Shown: in pieces, positions 1 through 10,856 of the stretch
Position numbering within the stretch: position 1 is the stretch's first letter
Layout: each line of letters begins with the position of its first letter
Assembly: GCA_021413845.1 (NCBI GenBank)
Contig: JAIOPP010000100.1
Span: 1 to 44,164 of the forward strand
DNA: 44,164 nucleotides
Source of the DNA: Planctomycetia bacterium
GTDB taxonomy: Bacteria > Planctomycetota > Planctomycetia > Pirellulales > PNKZ01
Reading direction: 5' to 3'
The notes under the pieces: model-generated
What the model saw: the letters and a program-made list of their open reading frames with translations, nothing else
Database searches by the model: none
Told to the model about the DNA's origin: nothing
Translations under genes and position numbers: made by a program

Positions 1-1510
1 ATTGCGGTGCGCCGAGTCGTGCCGGGTTCACTGCGGCGATGTCGTGCGGTTGTTGGAACGTTGCTTGCGGCGGCACGGCCGCGGGTTGCTCGACCACGGT
101 CGTCAGCGAGGCCGGGACGACCTTGCCGACGACGCGGTAGTCCCAAGCGCGGTGGACGGGCCAAGCCATTGCCGTTTTATCTTCCGGATCGATCAAGGCC
201 GGCGTCGAGGTCGGGCCCATCCGCGGCCCGCGATCCAATTCCGGATCGGGAATCGGCTGCAACCGGGGAGCGGCGGGAATCGCCGTTCCGCTCGGAGCGA
301 CGCCGCTCGAATACGGCGACTTCGCCGGAGTCGAGATCGTGCCCGGCATGTTGAGAGCCGGTGCAGTGAGGGCCGGAGCGGTGAGCATCGGTGCGGAAAG
401 CGCGGGAGCGCTGTAGGTCGTCGTCGGAACGGGCTGGCTCGTAGGGATCGGCGTCGAGGAGTTCAGCGTCGGCGGAACCGGTGTGAGTCCGCCGGCCGAG
501 ACGGAACCTGAATTCGAGTTCGGGGCATAGTATACGGAGCCGGTCGTCGGCAGCGGAGCGGCGGAGCTCAGCGTCGTGCCGTTTAATGATGTGCCATTCA
601 AAGACGGCACCGGCGTCGAAAGGGTCGGTCGGGCATACGCCGGCGTCGCCACGGACGGAGCAGCGTAGGTCGGGGCGTACGTCTGAGTCGAATACGATGG
701 TGCCGAGTAAGCGGGGGCCGCATAAGTCGGGGCGATGCTGCTCGGCGCGCCGTACGTCGCAGCCGGAGCGGCGGCGGGGGCCGCGGCGGCGCCGTAGTTA
801 TACCCGCTGACGTTGACGTTGCCTTGCGCCGGCGGATAGGTGTAAGCGTTGGTCGTGCCGGGAACGAACGACGACGTGCGCGGCGCGGCGTAGTTCGTGG
901 TCGTGGGATACGGCGACGTCGGGAACGTCGAGGTTGGATAAGTTGGGGCCGGATAAGTTGGGGCCGGGTAAGTTGCTGCCGGAGCGTAGTAGCTCGTCGT
1001 GGCGACACCGCGGTTGCACGAAGAGCAACCGGCGGCCGGAGCGGCGTAGGTGGCCGCAGGGGCGGCATACGTCATCGCCGGAGCACCGATGCCCGACGTC
1101 GGAGCCGGAGCGTAGTAGGTCGTGGTCGCGGTGGGGCAGGCCGGCTGCGCCACCGAGTATTGCAAGCGATACGACGAATAAGGAACGTACTGCACTTGTT
1201 GTTGGTAGCTGACGACGGGACGCATCACGGTCGTCGGGCAACCGGTGCAAGGGTCGGCGCTGCAGACGGGACGATACGTCGTCACCGGCACCGCGACGGT
1301 TTGCGTTCGGTAGCACGTTTGCGGGACGTAGTTGCAAACGAGCTGCTGACCGCACGGATTGCAGACGGTGCCGCCGTAGAGCGAGGCCGCCGCGTTTTGG
1401 CGCTTTTGCAGACAGCCGAAGAAGGCATTCGCATCGGCAGGGACAAGCATGCTTGCCGCGGCCATGAGCGTGGCAGTTACTCGGATGCGTCGGTAAGTTC
1501 GTTTCATCAT
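1..1510 (-). CDS. Secreted Pro/Tyr/Ala-rich repetitive protein, 3' end outside window
   Basis: Reading back from an ATG at 1510, the frame stays open to the left edge (503 codons seen, no stop), so the gene is truncated by the window. GGGAGAG lies 6-7 bases upstream of the start. The first ~30 residues (MMKRTYRR, then a hydrophobic stretch ending ADANA) look like a Sec signal peptide. Next come a Cys-rich part with CNPCGQQ- and CTGCP-like motifs and YVP repeats (about residues 45-130), then a long low-complexity stretch built from TYAAPA, YPAPT and ALTAP-like units. The last visible part (ALIDPEDKTAMAWPVHRAW) is less repetitive. Proteins of this kind are common in planctomycete envelopes. A wall or surface role is inference, and no catalytic motif is seen. 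Confidence 0.75.
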   Translation of the reverse strand, partial: MMKRTYRRIRVTATLMAAASMLVPADANAFFGCLQKRQNAAASLYGGTVCNPCGQQLVCNYVPQTCYRTQTVAVPVTTYRPVCSADPCTGCPTTVMRPVVSYQQQVQYVPYSSYRLQYSVAQPACPTATTTYYAPAPTSGIGAPAMTYAAPAATYAAPAAGCSSCNRGVATTSYYAPAATYPAPTYPAPTYPTSTFPTSPYPTTTNYAAPRTSSFVPGTTNAYTYPPAQGNVNVSGYNYGAAAAPAAAPAATYGAPSSIAPTYAAPAYSAPSYSTQTYAPTYAAPSVATPAYARPTLSTPVPSLNGTSLNGTTLSSAAPLPTTGSVYYAPNSNSGSVSAGGLTPVPPTLNSSTPIPTSQPVPTTTYSAPALSAPMLTAPALTAPALNMPGTISTPAKSPYSSGVAPSGTAIPAAPRLQPIPDPELDRGPRMGPTSTPALIDPEDKTAMAWPVHRAWDYRVVGKVVPASLTTVVEQPAAVPPQATFQQPHDIAAVNPARLGAPQ

Positions 1511-1856: not shown

Positions 1857-2486
1857 CTACGACCGGCGCAACTCCGCTAAGTCGTACAACCGGAAGAACA
1901 GTTCGCGCATGTTGCGACCTTCGTTGGAAAACAATCGCTCAACTTCTTCCGGTGCGATGTCGCCGGCGGTGCCCGCTGCGGAATGCCGTGCGAGGAGTTC
2001 CGTCGCAAGTTGCACGGCCGTGGCGACGCTCGGGCAGACCTCGAACAGCGTCGGTAAGCGAACGGGAAAACAAACCGGCGTGTGCGTCGTGAGCAACAGC
2101 CCGCAATCATGCCGACGGACGCTACACGCAACTTGCACGCGACTTAAGAAGCTCAACTGCTCATAACCGTCGAGGCAAAGAATCGTGCGCGGCGTTAAGG
2201 GCTCGGTGAGTTTCAAGCGACGTTGTCCGTCGTGCAGCTCGATGAGTTGCACTCGCTCGCCGCGCGCCGTGAATTCGCGCACCAGCGAAGCGAGCAACGT
2301 CGACTTCCCCGCACCATGCGGACCTACGATTTGCCCGCGACGATTCGCGGATAAGAACCGCTCGACGAGCGCTGCCGCGGACAGGCCCGACGGAAAGAGA
2401 AACGGCAGCGCCCCGGGGCGCACGAAGCGCGACGAGAACGGATTGATCCGCTCCGCAGGTTCGTCGCCGCGTGCTTCGTCGTTCAT
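1857..2486 (-). CDS. P-loop ATPase, third gene of DUF3592/arrestin-like operon
   Basis: A 209-residue protein with a Walker A motif GPHGAGKST at residues 55-63 and a Walker B-like strand ILCLDGYEQL about 60 residues later. It ends with a helical tail (RLFSNEGRNMRELFFRLY). It has no ABC signature motif, transmembrane segment or DNA-binding domain that I can see. The size and Walker arrangement suggest a small stand-alone NTPase. The ATG at 2486 is chosen over a longer frame to 2588 because it overlaps the stop of the preceding gene as ATGA, implying translational coupling. Function is unknown; context suggests it powers or regulates the membrane protein encoded first in the operon. Confidence 0.8.
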   Translation of the reverse strand: MNDEARGDEPAERINPFSSRFVRPGALPFLFPSGLSAAALVERFLSANRRGQIVGPHGAGKSTLLASLVREFTARGERVQLIELHDGQRRLKLTEPLTPRTILCLDGYEQLSFLSRVQVACSVRRHDCGLLLTTHTPVCFPVRLPTLFEVCPSVATAVQLATELLARHSAAGTAGDIAPEEVERLFSNEGRNMRELFFRLYDLAELRRS

Positions 2487-2884
2487 AAGAGCGGGGGCGC
2501 CGCGGCCGGAACGGTGCCGACATGGAACGGCGTATCCGAAGTCAGTTCTTTGCCGCGCGTCGGAAAGAGACGCACGCGTACGCACCAACGAACCTTGACG
2601 ATCACCCCTTCATAGCTGAGCGGGCTCATCGGCAGCACGGTGCGCAAGCGTTGCGGTTTGCGTAAGTCGATCATGCCGCCGTCATCGGTCGTTTGACGCA
2701 CGAAGTGATGCACGGCGATGTCTTCGTCCCCTTTGCCCATCGTGTACCACAAGACGGAAACTTCGATGGCCCGCGCGTCGACGAGCGCGAGCGAATCGAT
2801 CCGATATTCGGCCGTGAGCGTTTCGCCGGGCTCGTAATGCCGCCGGCTGCCGTCGAGCAAGATCGTGATGCCGGGATCGTTCAT
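2483..2884 (-). CDS. Small arrestin-like (Spo0M-type) beta-sandwich protein
   Basis: A 133-residue soluble protein. YEPGETLTAEYRID near the N-terminus, EVSVLWYTMGKGDED in the middle and SPLSYEGVIVKVRWCVRVRLF near the C-terminus form the alternating beta-strand pattern seen in arrestin-like/Spo0M proteins. It has no signal peptide or membrane segment. Its ATG overlaps the stop of the upstream DUF3592 gene (ATGA at 2884-2881), and its own stop overlaps the ATPase start in the same way. The DUF3592 protein ends in a similar beta-rich region, so the two may pair or share a ligand. The fold assignment is by motif resemblance, and the role is unknown. Confidence 0.75.
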   Translation of the reverse strand: MNDPGITILLDGSRRHYEPGETLTAEYRIDSLALVDARAIEVSVLWYTMGKGDEDIAVHHFVRQTTDDGGMIDLRKPQRLRTVLPMSPLSYEGVIVKVRWCVRVRLFPTRGKELTSDTPFHVGTVPAAAPPLL

Positions 2885-4173
2885 GCGTGCGGCACTCCGT
2901 TGCGGCCGGGAAACACCAACAGCGAGAAGACCCGCTCGAAGTCGGGCCAGTTGTGCAGGTCGCCGCGCACGATCAACTTCCATTTCACCGCGTTGTGCGG
3001 CGATTGAAACGAGTGCATCGCCGCTTCCGGCACGCGCAGCTCGAGTCGCGTGGCGAACGGTTGGCCGCGCTTCAAGGTGAACGAATCGCGGCGAAAGACT
3101 TCCGTTTCGACGACGCGCTGAATGTGCGTGCGCGAGTTCGTCCCTTGGCGAAACGTCGCCTCTTCGTCGCAGGCCAGCACGATCGAAAGTCGCTCGAAGT
3201 GCAGCCTGCCTTGCTGCGAGAAGAAGATTTCGTAGCGCCCCCCGGGATACAGCGGATGGTCGGAGACTTCGACGACCGTCGGCTCGACGCCAGTCGTGAT
3301 CATGAGTTGCTTGCCGGCTAAGAAAGCGAGAAATCCTCCGGCGACGAGAAACGGAATCAACCCCAGGCCGAGCAGGTAGTCGGCACGGCCGGCAAGCGCT
3401 TCGTCGATCGCCTTGTAGACGAGCCAGCCGACGAGGATATTCCAACCGATCGCGACGATCGTCATGAACCAAGTGTTCCAGCCCGGCGCGGCGATCGGCA
3501 GCCGATGCTTCAGGGTCGTGCCGGGACTGTTCGTAATGTCCTGATCGGCCGGCACCGTCGGATAGCGCGACGACGACCCTCCGGCCCCTTCGAACAATTC
3601 CATATTCGACGCTTGTTGCAGCAGCGCGCGATGCTCGGCCGATTTTCCCCAAGTAAGAAACACGTAGATCAATCCGCCGACGCCGACGGCGACGAACGCC
3701 GCGGGCAACAGCGGCAAGACCCAAGCGACCCAACTGTAGCCGCGCTTGACGACGGCGGTCGACGGACGATGCGGGTCGTACCAGCAAGGGTATTCCTTGC
3801 CGACCTCGAACGGCTCGATCAAGCGTTCGCATTCGGCCCGATCGGTGGAATAAACGCCGGTCGCATCGAACGTGGTCGCCTCGTATTCGCGACCCTCGAC
3901 CGCGTAACGAATCGAAACTTCCGGTCGATAATTGAGTTGATCTTCTTTGGAAATTTCGGCGATGCGCTTTCCGAGCACTGTGCCTTGGGTTTCTAGGAAC
4001 TCATGGTTCGCGCGCCATTCGGGCGCGGTCATCTGCCCGACGACGATCGCTAAGATGCCCGACCCGGCGACCATGAGCACGGCGAAGAAGGCCGCCATCG
4101 CGGCCTGTCCGCCCAACTCCGACATCGTGCGGCGCTGACCACGTTTTTTGCTGAAGAAACGAAAGCGAGGCAC
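2881..4173 (-). CDS. DUF3592 membrane protein with C-terminal arrestin-like region
   Basis: About 430 residues. A basic N-terminus (FRFFSKKRGQRR) precedes a hydrophobic helix (AAFFAVLMVAGSGILAIVVG), then an extracytoplasmic DUF3592-like beta domain with the motifs YRPEVSIRYAVEGREYE and PCWYDPHRPSTAVVKRGYSW. A second helix (WVLPLLPAAFVAVGVGGLIYVFL) and two more hydrophobic segments (NTWFMTIVAIGWNILVGWLV, LGLIPFLVAGGFLAFLAG) follow. The C-terminal ~150 residues are beta-rich and resemble arrestin/Spo0M repeats. The start is uncertain: a GTG at 4173 is used, with TTG 4233 and ATG 4125 as alternatives, and none has a strong ribosome-binding site. It is the first gene of a three-gene coupled operon. 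Confidence 0.8.
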   Translation of the reverse strand: MPRFRFFSKKRGQRRTMSELGGQAAMAAFFAVLMVAGSGILAIVVGQMTAPEWRANHEFLETQGTVLGKRIAEISKEDQLNYRPEVSIRYAVEGREYEATTFDATGVYSTDRAECERLIEPFEVGKEYPCWYDPHRPSTAVVKRGYSWVAWVLPLLPAAFVAVGVGGLIYVFLTWGKSAEHRALLQQASNMELFEGAGGSSSRYPTVPADQDITNSPGTTLKHRLPIAAPGWNTWFMTIVAIGWNILVGWLVYKAIDEALAGRADYLLGLGLIPFLVAGGFLAFLAGKQLMITTGVEPTVVEVSDHPLYPGGRYEIFFSQQGRLHFERLSIVLACDEEATFRQGTNSRTHIQRVVETEVFRRDSFTLKRGQPFATRLELRVPEAAMHSFQSPHNAVKWKLIVRGDLHNWPDFERVFSLLVFPGRNGVPHA

Positions 4174-4414: not shown

Positions 4415-5872
4415 ATGAAAAAACAATCCGCCGGCCCGAGCGCAGAGCGGTCTCTAATCCAGCGGTTGAAGTTCGGCTCGACGCTCGCGCTCGGCACGCT
4501 TTTGTGCTGCGCGACCTCGGCTTGCGCTCAAGCGACCGCGCCGGCCGGCGCACCGGAGAAGCCCGTTGGCACCGCGACTCTGCCGACTGAAACTCGCCCG
4601 GCTGTGAGCACAGCTGGCCAAGGGGAAGATTGGTCGCAATGGCGCGGGCCGCGTTCCAATGGGATCGCGCTGCGGACTTCGCTGCCGAGCACCTGGCCGA
4701 GCGCTCCGCTGGAGCCGGTGTGGCGCATGCCGCTTGGGGAAGGTTGGTCGTCGCCTGTGGTCGGCGAGGGGCGCGTTTACATGCTCGATCGCAACGGCCC
4801 GCTCGAACGCGCAGCGGCCTACGATGCCGTCACCGGCAAGCTGTTGTGGGAACGGACCAACCCGGTCGATTTCAATCCGCATGCCGTGGGGCGTCGCTAT
4901 GGCAACGGGCCGAAGGGAACTCCCGCCTTCGCCGGTGGATTCGTTTATACGCTCGGCATCGCCGGTTGGCTGCAATGTTTGAAGGCCGAGAGCGGCGAAG
5001 TGGTTTGGAAGAGTTACTTCCCGGCGGAGTTCGCCGAGTCCGTGCCGCTGGCCGACCAGCGCACTTATGTCGTCGCCGAAGATCATGTGGTCGTGCCGAT
5101 CGGCGGAGGTCGCGGCGCGCCGGTGCCGCTGTTCGGGTACACCGGTTCGCCTCTGGTGTTCGATCAGTTCGTTATCGCGTCGACCGGCGGCGCGCGCGGC
5201 GGCACGATCACGGCGTTCGAGCGGACGACCGGCAAGGTCGCTTGGCACGCGCTGCATGAGAACGTCTCTTATTCATCGCCCGTCTCGGCCGAGATCGGGG
5301 GGGTGAAGCAAGTCGTCGTGCCGACCGGCCCGAGGTTGGTGGGCCTGGAACTCGCGACCGGCAAATTGCTGTGGAGCGTGCCGTATCAAAATCAATACGA
5401 CGAAACGATCGGCACTCCGGTCGCCGCCGGCGAGCTGGTGTTGCTCACCGCCGTGGGGCGGCCGCTGTCGGCGTGGAAGATCGGTCGCAATGCGGCCGGC
5501 GAATTTGCGGCGAGCGAAGTTTGGCAAAACGACGATCTGCAAAGTTACTTATCGTCGGTGGTCGTCGTCGGAGAGTTCGTCTACGGCATGAACGACGGCG
5601 GCGAATGGCATTGCCTCAAGCTCGCCGACGGCAAAACGATCTGGCGCGGCGGCAACCACGGCTACTACACCACGCCGCTCGTCGCCGAAAATCGCATTCT
5701 GGCACTGAACGAGCGCGGTGTACTCGACGTCTTAGGAGTGAACCCGCAAGCCTACGAGCCGATCGTCACGACGAGGGTCGCGAAAGAACCGACCTGGACC
5801 TCGCCGGCCCTCGTCGGCAACCGGCTGTATGTACGCATGCGCAGCGCGCTGGTTTGCTACGAACTAAAGTAA
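4415..5872 (+). CDS. Exported PQQ-like beta-propeller repeat protein
   Basis: A 485-residue protein with a signal peptide (hydrophobic core LKFGSTLALGTLLCCATSACA, cleavage near ACAQA). DWSQWRGPRSNGIA at about residue 69 is the typical entry motif of planctomycete PQQ-like/quinoprotein-type propellers. Repeats of the form AYDAVTGKLLWE, CLKAESGEVVWK, AFERTTGKVAWH, GLELATGKLLWS and CLKLADGKTIWR mark successive blades. No calcium- or PQQ-binding dehydrogenase motif and no haem site are seen, so it is probably a binding or scaffold protein rather than an alcohol dehydrogenase. It faces the YgfZ-like gene across a REP-like palindrome. A second protein of the family is encoded at 28502-29965. Confidence 0.9.
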   Translation: MKKQSAGPSAERSLIQRLKFGSTLALGTLLCCATSACAQATAPAGAPEKPVGTATLPTETRPAVSTAGQGEDWSQWRGPRSNGIALRTSLPSTWPSAPLEPVWRMPLGEGWSSPVVGEGRVYMLDRNGPLERAAAYDAVTGKLLWERTNPVDFNPHAVGRRYGNGPKGTPAFAGGFVYTLGIAGWLQCLKAESGEVVWKSYFPAEFAESVPLADQRTYVVAEDHVVVPIGGGRGAPVPLFGYTGSPLVFDQFVIASTGGARGGTITAFERTTGKVAWHALHENVSYSSPVSAEIGGVKQVVVPTGPRLVGLELATGKLLWSVPYQNQYDETIGTPVAAGELVLLTAVGRPLSAWKIGRNAAGEFAASEVWQNDDLQSYLSSVVVVGEFVYGMNDGGEWHCLKLADGKTIWRGGNHGYYTTPLVAENRILALNERGVLDVLGVNPQAYEPIVTTRVAKEPTWTSPALVGNRLYVRMRSALVCYELK

Positions 5873-5883
5873 GGCAGAGCTCT

Positions 5884-5988
5884 GAGGCGAGCGGGGGACG
5901 TAAGTCCCCCGGTGACATCAAAGCTGCTTGACGCATAGCGACTTGTCGGGGCGATCTTACCGGGGGACTCACGTCCCCCGCTCGCCTC
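5884..5988. repeat. REP-like inverted repeat between convergent genes
   Basis: Two 30-base arms, 5884-5913 and 5959-5988, are reverse complements with a single mismatch and are separated by 45 bases. Each arm also contains its own hairpin: GGGGGAC and GTCCCCC around a 4-base loop. The arrangement resembles extragenic REP/BIME-type elements. The right arm runs into the YgfZ-like gene and supplies its last codons and stop. It could fold as a terminator for both convergent genes. Confidence 0.75.
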
Positions 5989-6952
5989 GGATAGGCGCAA
6001 CGATCGTTGCCGCGCCCAACGCGCTTTCCAGTTTGGTTCCGAGTTCGTTACAGTCGCGGCGTATGTAGGCCAGAGCGACGGTGATCCCTTGTCTGACCGA
6101 CGATGACGTCACTTTTCCGACCGCTTGTTTTTGAAACAACAAGCCGCTGCCGACTTCGGCCGGCTCCGCCGGTTCGGGCGCAAGGGCAATATACTCCAAC
6201 ACCACGAGCGTCTTATTAACGTGGCCGAGAGCGTCGAGCCGAGCTACGGTTTCTTGGCCGAGATAACATCCTTTGCGGAAGCTTATCGTCAGTTCGTTAC
6301 GGTCGAGCTCTTGAGCGAGGTTCTTGTCGGAAATGTCGAGACCGTAAAGGGGGAGGCCGGCTTCGATGCGCGGCGCTTCCCAAACATCGGCCGCGCAAGC
6401 AACCGCGCCGGCGGCAACGAGCTTGGCTTGCAGATCGGCCGCGGCCTCGCGAGGACAAAAGATCGTGTAGTTCGGCTCCGGTGCTTGGGCCGAGCGGGCG
6501 ACGAACGCACCGTCTCCGAATGCCGGAATCAACGTGTTGCCGAGCGTGGCGGTCGGCAACGCAACGGCCAACGCTCGGCCGACGATCTCCGCGGCGTTCG
6601 CGCCGGCGATGAGCAGTTCCGCCCAATCGTTCGTCCGATCGGTGATCGTTACTTTCTCGCGGATCAAGTATTTGTCGAGGTGCTTACGCAACCGTGCGCC
6701 GACTTCGACGGCCGGCGCTCCGATCTCTTCCAACAGCAGCCGCTCGCCCGTGTTGTGTACGAACACATAGAACTGAATGTGCCCCTTGGCGTCGAGCAGG
6801 AACGCTTCGCAGCCGGTGCCGGCCGCGAGGTTCTTGATGTCGTTCGTGCAGAGGTTGTGCAGAAACACGGCACGGTCTGCGCCGGTGAGCTCGATCTTAC
6901 CGCGCGTCGAGAAGTCGACCGTTCCGCAAACGTCGTAGAGCGGGCCTGTCAT
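5969..6952 (-). CDS. ygfZ: YgfZ/GcvT-like folate-binding protein (CAF17 family)
   Basis: A 327-residue protein of the aminomethyltransferase-fold family. The family signature KGCYLGQE is at residues 227-234. N-terminal FLHNLCTNDIKNL and the strand FLLDAKGHIQFYVFV match YgfZ/CAF17 proteins, which support Fe-S cluster enzymes in a tetrahydrofolate-dependent way. The ATG at 6952 is preferred to the upstream in-frame codon at 7012 because it overlaps the stop of the LarA-like gene (ATGA), pointing to translational coupling. The final residues RGERGT and the TGA are encoded within an arm of a REP-like repeat, so the native C-terminus may have been altered when the repeat arrived. FolD at 35165 supplies folate one-carbon units in the same window. 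Confidence 0.85.
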   Translation of the reverse strand: MTGPLYDVCGTVDFSTRGKIELTGADRAVFLHNLCTNDIKNLAAGTGCEAFLLDAKGHIQFYVFVHNTGERLLLEEIGAPAVEVGARLRKHLDKYLIREKVTITDRTNDWAELLIAGANAAEIVGRALAVALPTATLGNTLIPAFGDGAFVARSAQAPEPNYTIFCPREAAADLQAKLVAAGAVACAADVWEAPRIEAGLPLYGLDISDKNLAQELDRNELTISFRKGCYLGQETVARLDALGHVNKTLVVLEYIALAPEPAEPAEVGSGLLFQKQAVGKVTSSSVRQGITVALAYIRRDCNELGTKLESALGAATIVAPIRGERGT

Positions 6953-8172
6953 GTCCGAACACTCTGCTCGAGTCGCACGTTCGTATACTGGGCGTCGTTC
7001 ACGATGATGCACGACTTGCGGCGCAGTGCGAGCCTTGCCACATCGGCCGCCTCGGCGACCGGTGCGATGCCGAGATCTTCGACCGTCGTCGCATCGAGCT
7101 TGCTCAAGAGATAGACCCGGACGCGGCGCTGTGCTTCCGCCAGCAGCAGCGCGGGGAAGGCATCTGCCGGCCGGACCTTGCGAATCTCATCGCCGGCCGT
7201 GTCGCGATCTTCTTGCTTCGTAAAGAGATCCAGGGCGGGCCCCAGCGGCTCTGCGAGCTCCGTACACAGCGCGACGGCGCCGCCGTCTTCGACCACTTCG
7301 AGCGCCATCGCCAGCGCCTTGCCGACGTTGGCCCACGACTGCGCCCCTTCGCCGGAGAGGGCTGCCACGACGAGATCGGCCGTGCGTGGGACTTCGCAAT
7401 TCCACGTGTCGTTCCAAAGCTCCTCGCCGCGCCGCGCAACGGCCGTGGCTTCGCCGGCGAGAACCAGCGGCGTGCCGCTTCCCGACTGCGGCACGACTTG
7501 CACGGTGAATTGCGTGCCGGTCTGTCGGCCGACGAGCTCGATCTCTTGTTGCGACTTCTCGAACATCTCGCTCCGGCTGTCGAGCAGGTGCGCGTTGCGG
7601 AAGCGCTTATGGGCATCGGCATCGGAGAAGGTCGGGTACAGGCCGCCGAAGATGCCTCGATAGTCCCACGCTTCGCGCCCGCGAAAGCAACCGACGGGAA
7701 TCACCATCTCGGCATCGGCAACCAATCGGTTGAGATAGATCGGCCGGCCGGAGCGGGTGTTGGTGAGGTAGCTGAGCTTGCCGCGATCGAGCGGGTCGTG
7801 GAGCTCGATGTGAATCGAAACGCCGTTGCTGAGCTCCAGTCGCTCGCCCGGCAGAGTTCGATCGGACTGCAGGACGGTGATGTCGGCCGGCAAGATCGAG
7901 GCGGCGAGCAATTGTTCGGCGATCACGCGCACGATCTCGGCCGAATGCGGCACTCCCCGGTCGAGCGCGATCGTGACTTTATCTCCCTCGACCACGGCTT
8001 GGGTGAGCATCGGGTACTTCAACGGATTCGCGAGAGCCTCGCGCGTGGCAGCTTCGATCGGTTGCGAAGTGATGGCTTCCGCTGCATGCGGCGCACAAAC
8101 GGCGATGAGCCGTTCGTCGTCGAGGGGGATCGTGAACTCTGCGGATTCGCCGAAACGGACGAGAGAAGACAT
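6949..8172 (-). CDS. LarA-like (DUF2088, lactate racemase superfamily) protein with divergent active site
   Basis: A 407-residue protein. VTIALDRGVPHSAEIVRVI near residue 70 corresponds to the conserved DDxTRP-type motif of LarA. ITVLQSDRTLPGE and AEMVIPVGCFRGR also fit the family order. LarA enzymes hold a nickel-pincer cofactor on a lysine in a GGxK-type loop next to a PH motif. Here the matching stretch reads FRGREAWDYRGIFGGLYPTF, with neither the PH histidine nor the lysine apparent. No larB, larC or larE is seen nearby. Start ATG 8172 is chosen over an in-frame codon at 8205. It is coupled by ATGA to the YgfZ-like gene. It probably acts on a 2-hydroxyacid-like compound or has lost racemase chemistry; substrate unknown. 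Confidence 0.75.
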   Translation of the reverse strand: MSSLVRFGESAEFTIPLDDERLIAVCAPHAAEAITSQPIEAATREALANPLKYPMLTQAVVEGDKVTIALDRGVPHSAEIVRVIAEQLLAASILPADITVLQSDRTLPGERLELSNGVSIHIELHDPLDRGKLSYLTNTRSGRPIYLNRLVADAEMVIPVGCFRGREAWDYRGIFGGLYPTFSDADAHKRFRNAHLLDSRSEMFEKSQQEIELVGRQTGTQFTVQVVPQSGSGTPLVLAGEATAVARRGEELWNDTWNCEVPRTADLVVAALSGEGAQSWANVGKALAMALEVVEDGGAVALCTELAEPLGPALDLFTKQEDRDTAGDEIRKVRPADAFPALLLAEAQRRVRVYLLSKLDATTVEDLGIAPVAEAADVARLALRRKSCIIVNDAQYTNVRLEQSVRT

Positions 8173-8423
8173 TCTAGGAAGCCTGTAAGAAATGGGGGCT
8201 CTCAAATCGCGGCCCCGTTGAACTCCATAACCGATCTTATCCCTCTGCGCTCAGCATGGTCAATAAGCCGAGCTTGAGTCGCAATGCAGCCATGCGACAT
8301 AATGCTTGCTCGCTGCCTAGATAGATAGTGGCCCTAATGGCATCGAGCGGAAGCGATGGATCTTTCCGCACGGACATAAAAGCGTCAAGCCGACGCAATC
8401 GTACCAATCAAGGAAGGTTTTCG

Positions 8424-10856
8424 ATGTCGTCGTTCTCCCTCGGCCGTATTGCGCCGACATTGGCGTTGCTTTCGCTCGTGCTGTTGTCGCACTTCGCCGG
8501 CTGCTCCGGGAAGCCGCCGAAAGGACCTGATGAAAGTTCCGCGCCGGCGCTGACGGAAGGGGAGAAGCTGCTGACGCGGATGATCGAAACCTACGCGAAG
8601 GCCGATTCGTATTTCGATCGGGGGGAATTGCGCATCGTCGGTCGCAACCAAGGACAACAGCTGACGGAATCGAAGTTGCCGTTCGCGGTGATGCTGGAGC
8701 GGCCCGGCAAGTTGCACCTGCATTTGTATCGTGCGACGTACGTGTGCGACGGAACTTGGGCCTGGGGCTGGGATGAAGACTTGCCCGGCTTTCTGCTGAA
8801 GAAGCCGGCGCCGAATCCCGTGACCCTCGGCGATGCTTACTCCGACGACGCGCTCAAAGCGGCGTTCAACGGCATGTACGGCGGTTCGCTGCCGGCCGAG
8901 ATGCTGCTCGGGGCCGACGCGATGGATTTGATTCGCCACGGCGACGCAAAGCCGGAGTTGATGTCCGACGATTTCGTCGGCGATCGAAATTGTCGGCGCG
9001 TGCGCGTCAAATCCGCCGACGGAAATACGGTGTATTGGATCGATCGTGAGAATCTGACCTTGCGGCGGATCGAGTTCCCGACGGATCGCCTGGCGCTCAC
9101 GCTCGCCGATACGCTCTCGATGACGGAGCTGAAACTGACGGCGGAATTCATCGACGCGCAACTCAACACTAAGGTGCCGGCCGAGGCGTTTCAATTCGAC
9201 CCGCCGCCGCAACTGAAAATCGTCGATAAGTTGGATCCGTTGTGGGGGAGCTCGCCTCCCCCTCCGCTCGCCGAAACGCTCGGGCGGACGATCGGAGACT
9301 TCAAACTGCGCACGCTCGATGGTCGCGCGATCGGTCGGGGAGACTTAAACGGCAAGGTCGCCGTGGTCCTCTTCGTCGCGTTCGAGGGAAGTCAACACTT
9401 CGTGCTGGAAGCGCTCAATGCAGCCCAGCGGAAATTCGGCAAGCGCGATGACTTGATGATGCTCGCAGTCAGCATCGACAACCCGGGCCCGATGGGAATC
9501 GGCGACGAAGTTTTAGACAAAGCGATGAAGCAAGCGAAGTTGGAGGTTCCGCTGGCGCGGCTCGTCGACGGCTCGGCGATGACGGCGTTCGACGTCCGGT
9601 TCGTGCCGAACCTGTTCATTCTCGATCGTCAGGGGATCGTGCAAGATAACGAAGTCGGGCTCAATCCGAAGCTGAACGCGGAGCTCGGCACGCGCATCGA
9701 CGAGGTGTTGGCCGGGAAGTCGCTCGTCGAAGCGGCCCGTGCGCGTTATGCGGCGCGATTGAAGCAATTCGAGCAAGCGCAACAAGCCCAGGCGGCGATC
9801 TCGCCCGAGGGGGGATTGTCGGCCCGAGTGAGCTTGGCGACGAAGTCGCAACCGAAAACGCTCAAGCTCACGCAGCTCTGGCAGAACACGGAAATCAAGA
9901 AGCCCGGCCACATCGTCGTGGCGGAAGAGAAAGGGAAGCCGGCGCGGATCGTCGTGCTGGACGGCTTGCGCGCCGTCGGCGAACTCGACGCGGCGGGGAA
10001 GCTCGTGCGCACCGCCCAACTCGATTTGCCGAAGGTGCCCGAGGAAGCGGTCGTTAGTTTTCTGCGTACGACCGTCGATCGGGACGGCAAGCGGTATTTC
10101 GCGGGTTCGGCTTCGGCTCAGCAACAGCTGCATTTGTTCGACGCCGATTTCAAGAAGCTGTTGAGCTTTCCGGATGGGACGCACGCGGGAATCTCCGACT
10201 TGCAGATGGGAGATCTCGACGGCGACGGCCGACCGGAAATCGTCGTCGGTTATTGGGGCGTCGTCGGGGTGCAGGCGATCTCGCTCGATGGGATTCGCCA
10301 ATGGAGCAACCGCAAGTTGCCGGAGAACGTGCAACGCTTGGCGCTCACCGGACCCGACAAAGACGGCAAGCGGCTGGTGCTATGCACGACGGGGCTGATG
10401 ACGCTGGCCGTGTTGAACGAACGGGGCGAAACGCTGAAAGAGATTCCGGTCGGCAATCGAGCCGCACGGCTCATCACCGCCGCCGATCTGACGGGGGACG
10501 GAAGCGTTGAACTGTGCGCCATTACTTCGACGAGCCCTGGCACGGACGTCGCGATCGGGTTCGACGCGGCGGGAGCCGAACTGTGGAACTATCCGCTACC
10601 GGCCGGCTTGCAACCGGTGCCGGAAATGCAAAACGAAATGATCGTCGGCGGCAAGTTGTTGAAAGACGGAACCGGGTTATGGGTCGTGGCCGGGGCCGAC
10701 GGCACGCTCCACTTTCTCGACGTCGCCGGGAAACCGCTCGATTCGTTCGCCTGGGGTGCGGCGATTCGCGGCCTTGCGATCGGCACGCTCGACGGCGCTC
10801 CGGCGTTATTCATTTCCGATGAAAAATCGGTGACGGCTTTGCGCTTCGAGCGTTGA
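8424..10856 (+). CDS. Lipoprotein: LolA/DUF2092-like domain, Cys-less thioredoxin-like domain, C-terminal propeller-like region
   Basis: An 810-residue protein starting at ATG 8424, with AAGGAAGG 6 bases upstream (an in-frame codon at 8328 lacks this). The signal ends in HFAGC, giving a likely lipidated Cys27. Residues ~45-260 resemble LolA/DUF2092 outer-membrane carrier-like domains (repeated strands, VYWIDRENLTLRRIEFP). Residues ~286-430 look like a redoxin/thioredoxin fold (TIGDFKLRTLDGRAIGRGDL, VVLFVAFEGSQ, RFVPNLFILDRQG) that keeps the cis-Pro strand (P395) but has no CxxC. The rest holds FG-GAP/VCBS-like units, MGDLDGDGRPEIVVGYWG and AADLTGDGSVELCAI, with WNYPL-type propeller repeats. 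Probably an envelope binding protein rather than a redox enzyme. Confidence 0.85.
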   Translation: MSSFSLGRIAPTLALLSLVLLSHFAGCSGKPPKGPDESSAPALTEGEKLLTRMIETYAKADSYFDRGELRIVGRNQGQQLTESKLPFAVMLERPGKLHLHLYRATYVCDGTWAWGWDEDLPGFLLKKPAPNPVTLGDAYSDDALKAAFNGMYGGSLPAEMLLGADAMDLIRHGDAKPELMSDDFVGDRNCRRVRVKSADGNTVYWIDRENLTLRRIEFPTDRLALTLADTLSMTELKLTAEFIDAQLNTKVPAEAFQFDPPPQLKIVDKLDPLWGSSPPPPLAETLGRTIGDFKLRTLDGRAIGRGDLNGKVAVVLFVAFEGSQHFVLEALNAAQRKFGKRDDLMMLAVSIDNPGPMGIGDEVLDKAMKQAKLEVPLARLVDGSAMTAFDVRFVPNLFILDRQGIVQDNEVGLNPKLNAELGTRIDEVLAGKSLVEAARARYAARLKQFEQAQQAQAAISPEGGLSARVSLATKSQPKTLKLTQLWQNTEIKKPGHIVVAEEKGKPARIVVLDGLRAVGELDAAGKLVRTAQLDLPKVPEEAVVSFLRTTVDRDGKRYFAGSASAQQQLHLFDADFKKLLSFPDGTHAGISDLQMGDLDGDGRPEIVVGYWGVVGVQAISLDGIRQWSNRKLPENVQRLALTGPDKDGKRLVLCTTGLMTLAVLNERGETLKEIPVGNRAARLITAADLTGDGSVELCAITSTSPGTDVAIGFDAAGAELWNYPLPAGLQPVPEMQNEMIVGGKLLKDGTGLWVVAGADGTLHFLDVAGKPLDSFAWGAAIRGLAIGTLDGAPALFISDEKSVTALRFER

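Follow-up and report, generated by a model that had tools for sequence, protein, structure and literature searches.

Results

A three-gene operon is conserved across the Pirellulales

We analyzed a 44,164-nucleotide stretch of DNA from a Planctomycetia bacterium of the order Pirellulales (contig JAIOPP010000100.1 of GenBank assembly GCA_021413845.1), which we refer to as the window. A prediction made from the sequence alone (the original prediction) had described three minus-strand genes as a translationally coupled operon for a DUF3592 membrane protein, an arrestin-like protein, and a P-loop ATPase. We found the three genes, here called A, B, and C, and both of the predicted ATGA overlaps at their junctions.

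2881 to 4173, minus strand: gene A, GTG start at 4173, TGA stop at 2881, 430 amino acids; two transmembrane (TM) segments around a DUF3592 domain (TM-DUF3592-TM module), a TM hairpin, and a predicted C-terminal arrestin-like lobe
2483 to 2884, minus strand: gene B, ATG start at 2884, TGA stop at 2483, 133 amino acids; predicted soluble arrestin-lobe protein
1857 to 2486, minus strand: gene C, ATG start at 2486, stop at 1857, 209 amino acids; minimal AAA+ ATPase, as judged from its structure model
2881 to 2884, minus strand: ATGA overlap of A and B, read from the sequence
2483 to 2486, minus strand: ATGA overlap of B and C, read from the sequence

In relatives, the start codon (TTG or GTG in most) aligns close to the same residue, upstream of a conserved KKRG motif, which backs the start assigned to A.

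We searched 97 genomes of the order, counting matches at an E value of ≤1e-3 and joining them by position afterwards, and 244 genomes spread over the phylum Planctomycetota. In the order, A was present in 89 genomes, B in 86, and C in 84, with some of the A matches weak or partial. We found A, B, and C adjacent, in this order and on one strand, in 71 of the 97 genomes. With this many complete clusters, neither the ATPase nor the small protein occurs mostly without the other two, and the predicted operon is borne out. A-B without C was found in two genomes, a weak or partial A alone in four, all three genes in nonadjacent positions in one, B and C only in one, and none of the three in seven; genomes in which one gene is separated from a remaining pair are taken up in the Discussion. 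Because matches recur across most of the 97 genomes, A, B, and C are not chance open reading frames (ORFs).

Gene content agrees across the phylum as well. Matches to A and to C at an E value of ≤1e-20 fall in the identical 22 of the 244 genomes, and B is present in 21 of those 22, the exception being G213. Fisher's exact test on the A/C table (22/0/0/222) gives a P value of 9e-32, for genomes that are not independent of one another. Three genomes of one genus (G118, G216, and G261) have all three genes, with C away from A-B. At the looser threshold of ≤1e-3, A matched in 66 of the 244 genomes, B in 31, and C in 130. Among the matches listed, most of the weak C matches span just a short stretch around the P loop. 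Many weak A matches are restricted to the DUF3592 part, and several of the 10 extra B matches outside the 22 genomes are of a fused or second-type form, described below.

The original prediction inferred a fixed stoichiometry from the ATGA overlaps. We found a one-base overlap at only 3 of 71 A-B junctions and 1 of 71 B-C junctions (approximate counts, with gaps measured between aligned ranges). The overlaps are rarely conserved and are therefore uninformative on stoichiometry. We concluded that the A-B-C operon is real and common to much of the order, in which the locus is near-universal.

Gene A joins a DUF3592 membrane module to an arrestin-like lobe

Three features of A carry the structural argument.

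3736 to 3990, minus strand: DUF3592 domain of A (residues 62 to 146), from Pfam; predicted periplasmic
3319 to 3474, minus strand: TM hairpin of A, segments at residues 234 to 252 and 267 to 285 predicted from hydropathy (helices at 232 to 260 and 266 to 293 in the structure model)
2899 to 3285, minus strand: arrestin-like C-terminal lobe of A (residues 297 to 425), from the structure model; predicted cytoplasmic

As predicted, A holds a DUF3592 domain, which passes Pfam PF12158 (E value of 1e-13, 52.2 bits against a cutoff of 25.3); a second search placed the domain at the same site. Hydropathy gives four TM segments, two overlapping peaks being counted as TM1, and DUF3592 sits between TM1 and TM2. 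The positive charges near the TM segments fit, weakly, an arrangement with the N terminus, the middle loop, and the C-terminal lobe inside and DUF3592 outside. This weakly suggests that DUF3592 is periplasmic and that the C-terminal lobe is cytoplasmic.

From residue 300 onward the structure model of A is mainly beta, with one short helix. We compared the model of the lobe with the PDB using Foldseek, and the matches were the N-lobes of TXNIP/VDUP-1 and ARRDC3 (E values from 1e-07) and Spo0M (1.4e-06). VIA aligned the lobe with VPS26B (Z score of 11.4, root mean square deviation [RMSD] of 3.1, 124 residues aligned) and with Spo0M (Z score of 9.8, RMSD of 2.9, 111 residues aligned). These comparisons support an arrestin beta-sandwich fold for the C terminus of A, in line with the original prediction.

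No known fold was accepted for the DUF3592 region; VIA rows to BK beta subunits reached Z scores of about 9, but their RMSDs of 8.6 to 9.4 led us not to trust them. An A homologue at 6658 to 8466 (minus strand) of locus L156 has two tandem matches to the DUF3592 region. Two more DUF3592 matches lie close together at about 27721 to 28769 of contig C85, in the same genome as the window (G000). The DUF3592 module is an add-on, being absent from fused relatives and apparently doubled in L156.

Fused homologues suggest that A and B supply the two lobes of one arrestin

B has no predicted TM segment. The match of the window's B to Pfam Arrestin_C (E value of 0.0037) falls below the cutoff, at 18 bits against 27.7. 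Across the B family, the window included, six of eight members match Arrestin_C at an E value of ≤0.1, the best at 4.3e-06, and two of eight match Arrestin_N. A PDB sequence search with the B profile gave no significant match (best E value of 0.48, to beta-arrestin). Together with the fused homologues described next, these family matches support the predicted arrestin-like nature of B at the sequence level.

Some relatives carry both lobes in one protein. In genome G027 (locus L080), A and B are fused in one frame through a Pro/Ala-rich linker. At L157, L158, L161, and L165, a single protein consists of B, then a TM part, and then the C-terminal lobe of A. One or two TM segments are predicted between the lobes of the fused proteins, with just one in L161. 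All three fused proteins scanned passed the Arrestin_N cutoff (E values of 5.2e-14 for L158, 7.8e-18 for L161, and 3.5e-10 for L165), and those of L158 and L161 also passed the Arrestin_C cutoff. The fused protein of L165 was the best homologue on Pfam Spo0M (PF07070), at 22.7 bits and short of the cutoff of 23; the window's A and B have no match to this family. A C-family ATPase gene adjoins the fused genes of L161 (E value of 9.2e-08) and L165 (3e-08).

A second type of operon, mostly unfused and lacking DUF3592, is present in a few genomes of the order, either alongside the main type or in its place (L106, L129, L132, L136, L137, and L138). These operons hold short arrestin proteins, sometimes two in a row, and a B homologue, and an ATPase of varying resemblance to C adjoins five of the six. 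An ORF with an NPF box and a P loop follows the unfused pair of L137. Across the fused homologues and second-type operons, no match to the A profile begins before position 229. A plasmid search with one fused homologue as the query found no match. An Arrestin_N search of the window's own genome also found no match; control genomes gave none either, and the search is hence uninformative.

Because relatives fuse B to the A lobe, B and the A lobe most probably each form one lobe of the same arrestin, with a membrane anchor between them, a reading that draws on the fusions and the Pfam matches. An arrestin proper has both lobes in a single soluble chain. Here, the arrestin is split over A and B, and A is membrane bound; the fused homologues have both lobes in one chain, but with a TM segment or hairpin.

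Gene C encodes a minimal AAA+ module

C has no predicted TM segment. Its structure model has a predicted local distance difference test score (pLDDT) of 88.4 and a predicted template modeling score (pTM) of 0.84. We examined residue conservation over 74 aligned homologues (58 from the main set and 16 distant ones), and the conserved sites are as follows.

2436 to 2444, minus strand: NPF box of C (N15, P16, F17); N and P in 74 of 74 homologues, F in 73
2298 to 2324, minus strand: Walker A of C (GPHGAGKST); G58, G60, and K61 in 74 of 74
2160 to 2171, minus strand: Walker B of C (D106-G-Y-E109); D106 in 74 of 74, G107 in 69, E109 in 64
2082 to 2084, minus strand: H135 of C, at the sensor-1 position (assigned via the strand order in the model); 74 of 74
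1905 to 1907, minus strand: R194 of C, sensor-2 arginine in the lid; 71 of 74

Seven residues (N15, P16, G58, G60, K61, D106, and H135) are invariant. D-G-x-E is the Walker B of most homologues; 5 of the 16 distant homologues have D-E. As to an Arg finger, we saw no invariant arginine near the fifth strand in the alignment and model. The Walker motifs of the predicted P-loop ATPase are therefore conserved, and the model extends that assignment, since C combines Walker A, Walker B, and a sensor 2 in the lid with an AAA+ fold.

The top Foldseek match of the model was Hda (E value of 3.6e-06), followed by clamp loaders. VIA aligned 189 of the 209 residues with RFC (Z score of 13.6, RMSD of 3.8), with ORC/Cdc6 close behind. 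The best NCBIfam match of the window's C was likewise Hda (E value of 3.1e-06), at 26.9 bits against an equivalog cutoff of 194.8; all of its NCBIfam matches are far under the cutoff. A PDB search with the C profile returned chiefly RecA, ABC, and other NTPases, matched over short P-loop stretches. The modeling supports C as a complete minimal AAA+ module of the RFC/ORC/Hda-like kind. Threading unfoldases usually carry pore loops between the second and third strands. The model of C has no helix between these strands, and this absence argues against a pore-loop unfoldase.

A secreted cysteine-rich protein often follows C

Two neighbors flank the operon in the window.

1 to 1510, minus strand: gene D, truncated by the contig end; encodes a secreted YVPQTCYR protein rich in Cys, lies 3' of C, and is linked to it in relatives
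4415 to 5872, plus strand: divergent neighbor of A, encoding a PQQ_2 beta-propeller protein (PQQ_2 E value of 4e-32)

The Cys-rich product of D, truncated here by the end of the contig, apparently has a signal peptide. Of 40 genomes of the order, 29 have a D homologue, and 28 of these show a single match. In 22 of these 29 genomes (counted by eye), D is immediately 3' of C and shares its strand; they include G010 and G028, where C is apart from A-B. Of the seven others, G004, G015, G016, G021, and G032 have D on a contig other than that of C, and G011 and G034 have no C match; C is at a contig end in G004 and G032. Of 31 loci with C, 14 had D after it in a separate motif scan. Pfam scans found no family for the D proteins of the window, L101, and L134 (whether that Pfam copy holds the YTV model was unchecked). 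D looks similar in style to the YTV wall proteins, which are Cys-rich and restricted within the planctomycetes (PMC8567305, PMC10632474), but D matched no Pfam family.

The C terminus of D often reads (D/G)W(R)PSxR. A tryptophan falls in the last 11 residues of 19 of 20 complete D-like ORFs, against a mean of 2.05 in shuffled sequences; this test was post hoc, the tail having been noticed beforehand. The 20 ORFs came from 24 picked by hand, after we dropped L107 (masked letters) and L108, L113, and L116 (other proteins); L128, the sole negative, was kept. We rejected the tail as a general sorting signal. Its pattern, which is loose in that the last codon also permits TGG, occurred at 81 places in 30 genomes, compared with 76 for a reversed control, and was not enriched. 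By coordinates, pattern matches fall at the ends of D genes in G002, G010, and G028 and probably in G016.

Of 36 loci with A, 15 have a PQQ_2 propeller gene that points away from A and is no more than 2 kb from it. A promoter and terminator scan found no promoter-like site, and terminator-like sites were not above shuffles. Farther off, the window's minus-strand ORFs at 5969 to 7012 and 6949 to 8205 overlap by 64 bases (6949 to 7012), and members of their families (F13 and F10) accompany each other at the four loci of the genus. A small protein at 8282 to 8596 of L139 matches the RNA polymerase alpha C-terminal domain; its family (F5) is near the cluster in 13 loci.

Discussion

A proposed arrestin-ATPase machine at the inner membrane

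The composition of this system is well supported. We propose that A, B, and C form an inner-membrane machine in which a split, two-lobed arrestin adaptor on the cytoplasmic face is switched by a dedicated AAA+ ATPase, and we give this reading about an even chance of being right. According to this model, the A lobe and B would be the two lobes of the split arrestin. The TM hairpin would anchor A, which in the window's lineage also has the TM-DUF3592-TM module, predicted to reach the periplasm. C would act as the switch, a minimal AAA+ protein akin to initiators and clamp loaders. The client, bound by the arrestin pair, would be either a protein awaiting secretion or the cytoplasmic portion of an envelope protein. 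C, which the arrestin lobes would recruit, would spend ATP to load, lock, or release this client. D would be the best candidate for the client or output, in the window's order only. We infer complex formation, topology, function, client, and direction of action, and the system may handle proteins of the unusual planctomycete envelope.

Several results weigh against this model. Six genomes of the order have A-B paired with C on another contig, and five have B-C paired with no A within 1.5 kb; some of these are contig ends. The model of A was built from nine sequences and is of moderate confidence (mean pLDDT of 65, pTM of 0.34), and the window's A matches no arrestin family in Pfam at an E value of ≤1. 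We saw no C beside the fused gene of L158, and the L157 locus is cut by its contig. The C terminus of A had been predicted to resemble B. Both appear to be arrestin related, in line with that claim; a profile-profile comparison (hhalign) of the A lobe with B, however, gave no alignment (probability of 0.2), and we rejected the idea that they are copies of one domain. Different lobes, which the fusions favor, might give such a negative result, yet it lends the two-lobe reading no support. For C, ABC-transporter models in NCBIfam matched six and five of eight members, compared with four of eight for Hda, and its class by sequence alone is unclear between Hda and ABC models. Finally, no D was recognized beside C in 11 loci outside the order, among same-strand ORFs of at least 90 amino acids within 1.8 kb, at most three per locus (L150 had no such ORF before its contig end). 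D is therefore unlikely to be a universal client and looks like a lineage-specific companion.

Alternative explanations

The three proteins could instead sense the periplasm. DUF3592 would detect a periplasmic signal or the partner beta-propeller, and the arrestin pair and C would relay it inward with no client being moved. The position of DUF3592 between TM1 and TM2 and the propeller gene divergently adjoining A in 15 of 36 loci are consistent with such a sensor. However, A-profile matches in the fused and second-type forms start at position 229 or later, so that the core manages without DUF3592, and Pfam and NCBIfam scans showed no regulator domain among A, B, and C. We consider a sensor unlikely. 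A similarly doubtful explanation is an assembly or export factor dedicated to D, possibly a cell wall protein, in which the arrestin lobes would act as chaperone or adaptor and C would supply the energy. The single D match in 28 of 29 genomes, its adjacency to C in 22 of these genomes, even where C has split from A-B, and the post hoc Trp tail (19 of 20 ORFs against a shuffled mean of 2.05) all point this way. Set against them are the 11 loci outside the order with no D recognized after C, the 11 of 40 genomes of the order in which the search used found no D, and the presence of D without the core C in G011 and G034. In the window, 346 nucleotides separate C from D, so D may be its own transcription unit; no terminator-like site was listed between them on that strand, with site counts no better than shuffles.

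An anti-phage or NACHT/STAND-like defense module is already disfavored, and we regard it as very improbable. The D-G-x-E Walker B of C resembles the NACHT pattern, and there are weak NACHT/nSTAND matches among C members. PADLOC mad8 matches C at 3.4e-05 over residues 52 to 113 only, short of most of the protein, and no PADLOC model matched A, B, or the L161 pair. In addition, the locus is near-universal and syntenic in the order, and the model of C folds as an AAA+ protein with a lid, which argues against defense. A bolder version of the machine that we propose is a speculation that we think improbable. In it, a prokaryotic, ATP-driven arrestin sorting machine, old in the Planctomycetota and built from a membrane-integral arrestin of two lobes and its own AAA+ switch, would pick envelope proteins at the cytoplasmic face, in the window's order perhaps via the Trp tail of D, as a functional analogue of cargo selection by eukaryotic arrestins and VPS26.

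Comparison with known systems

Planctomycetes are best known for their internal membrane folds. They have unusual envelopes and many functionally uncharacterized genes, and this locus has recognizable parts (arrestin lobes, a membrane anchor, and an AAA+ switch), which would make it a testable entry to envelope handling in the phylum. The evolution of arrestins would gain a bacterial, membrane-integral branch. In titles and abstract openings of the literature on planctomycete arrestin or VPS26, on arrestin with AAA ATPases, and on DUF3592, with few subscription journals covered, we found no description of the operon. The terms "arrestin" and "ATPase" are absent from the main text of the Planctopirus essential-gene paper (PMC10632474). 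The system is thus conserved and made of known folds in a combination that we did not find described.

Its parts can be set beside several known proteins. VPS26 and the alpha-arrestins are eukaryotic, soluble single chains that are not known to have a TM anchor or an AAA+ partner gene. The A lobe shares the arrestin sandwich with VPS26 and with ARRDC3 and TXNIP, and an adaptor role would follow by analogy only. Spo0M is a known bacterial protein of the arrestin clan (PMC2515105), and the Spo0M of Bacillus subtilis is a single chain that coprecipitates with FtsZ (PMC5325327). The A lobe matches the Spo0M structure; here, in contrast, the lobes are split, one is anchored in the membrane, and an AAA+ gene lies alongside. 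C shares its AAA+ core and lid with Hda, DnaA, ORC/Cdc6, and RFC, but the partners of its gene are arrestin lobes rather than replication proteins. NorQ, which works with the VWA protein NorD, and cso-CbbQ were among the Foldseek matches of C. These MoxR-type proteins are likewise small AAA+ ATPases with a dedicated adaptor; theirs is a VWA domain, whereas the adaptor here would be a membrane-bound arrestin. Lastly, A passes the Pfam cutoff as a DUF3592 protein and differs from other DUF3592 proteins in the fusion of this domain to a TM hairpin and an arrestin-like lobe.

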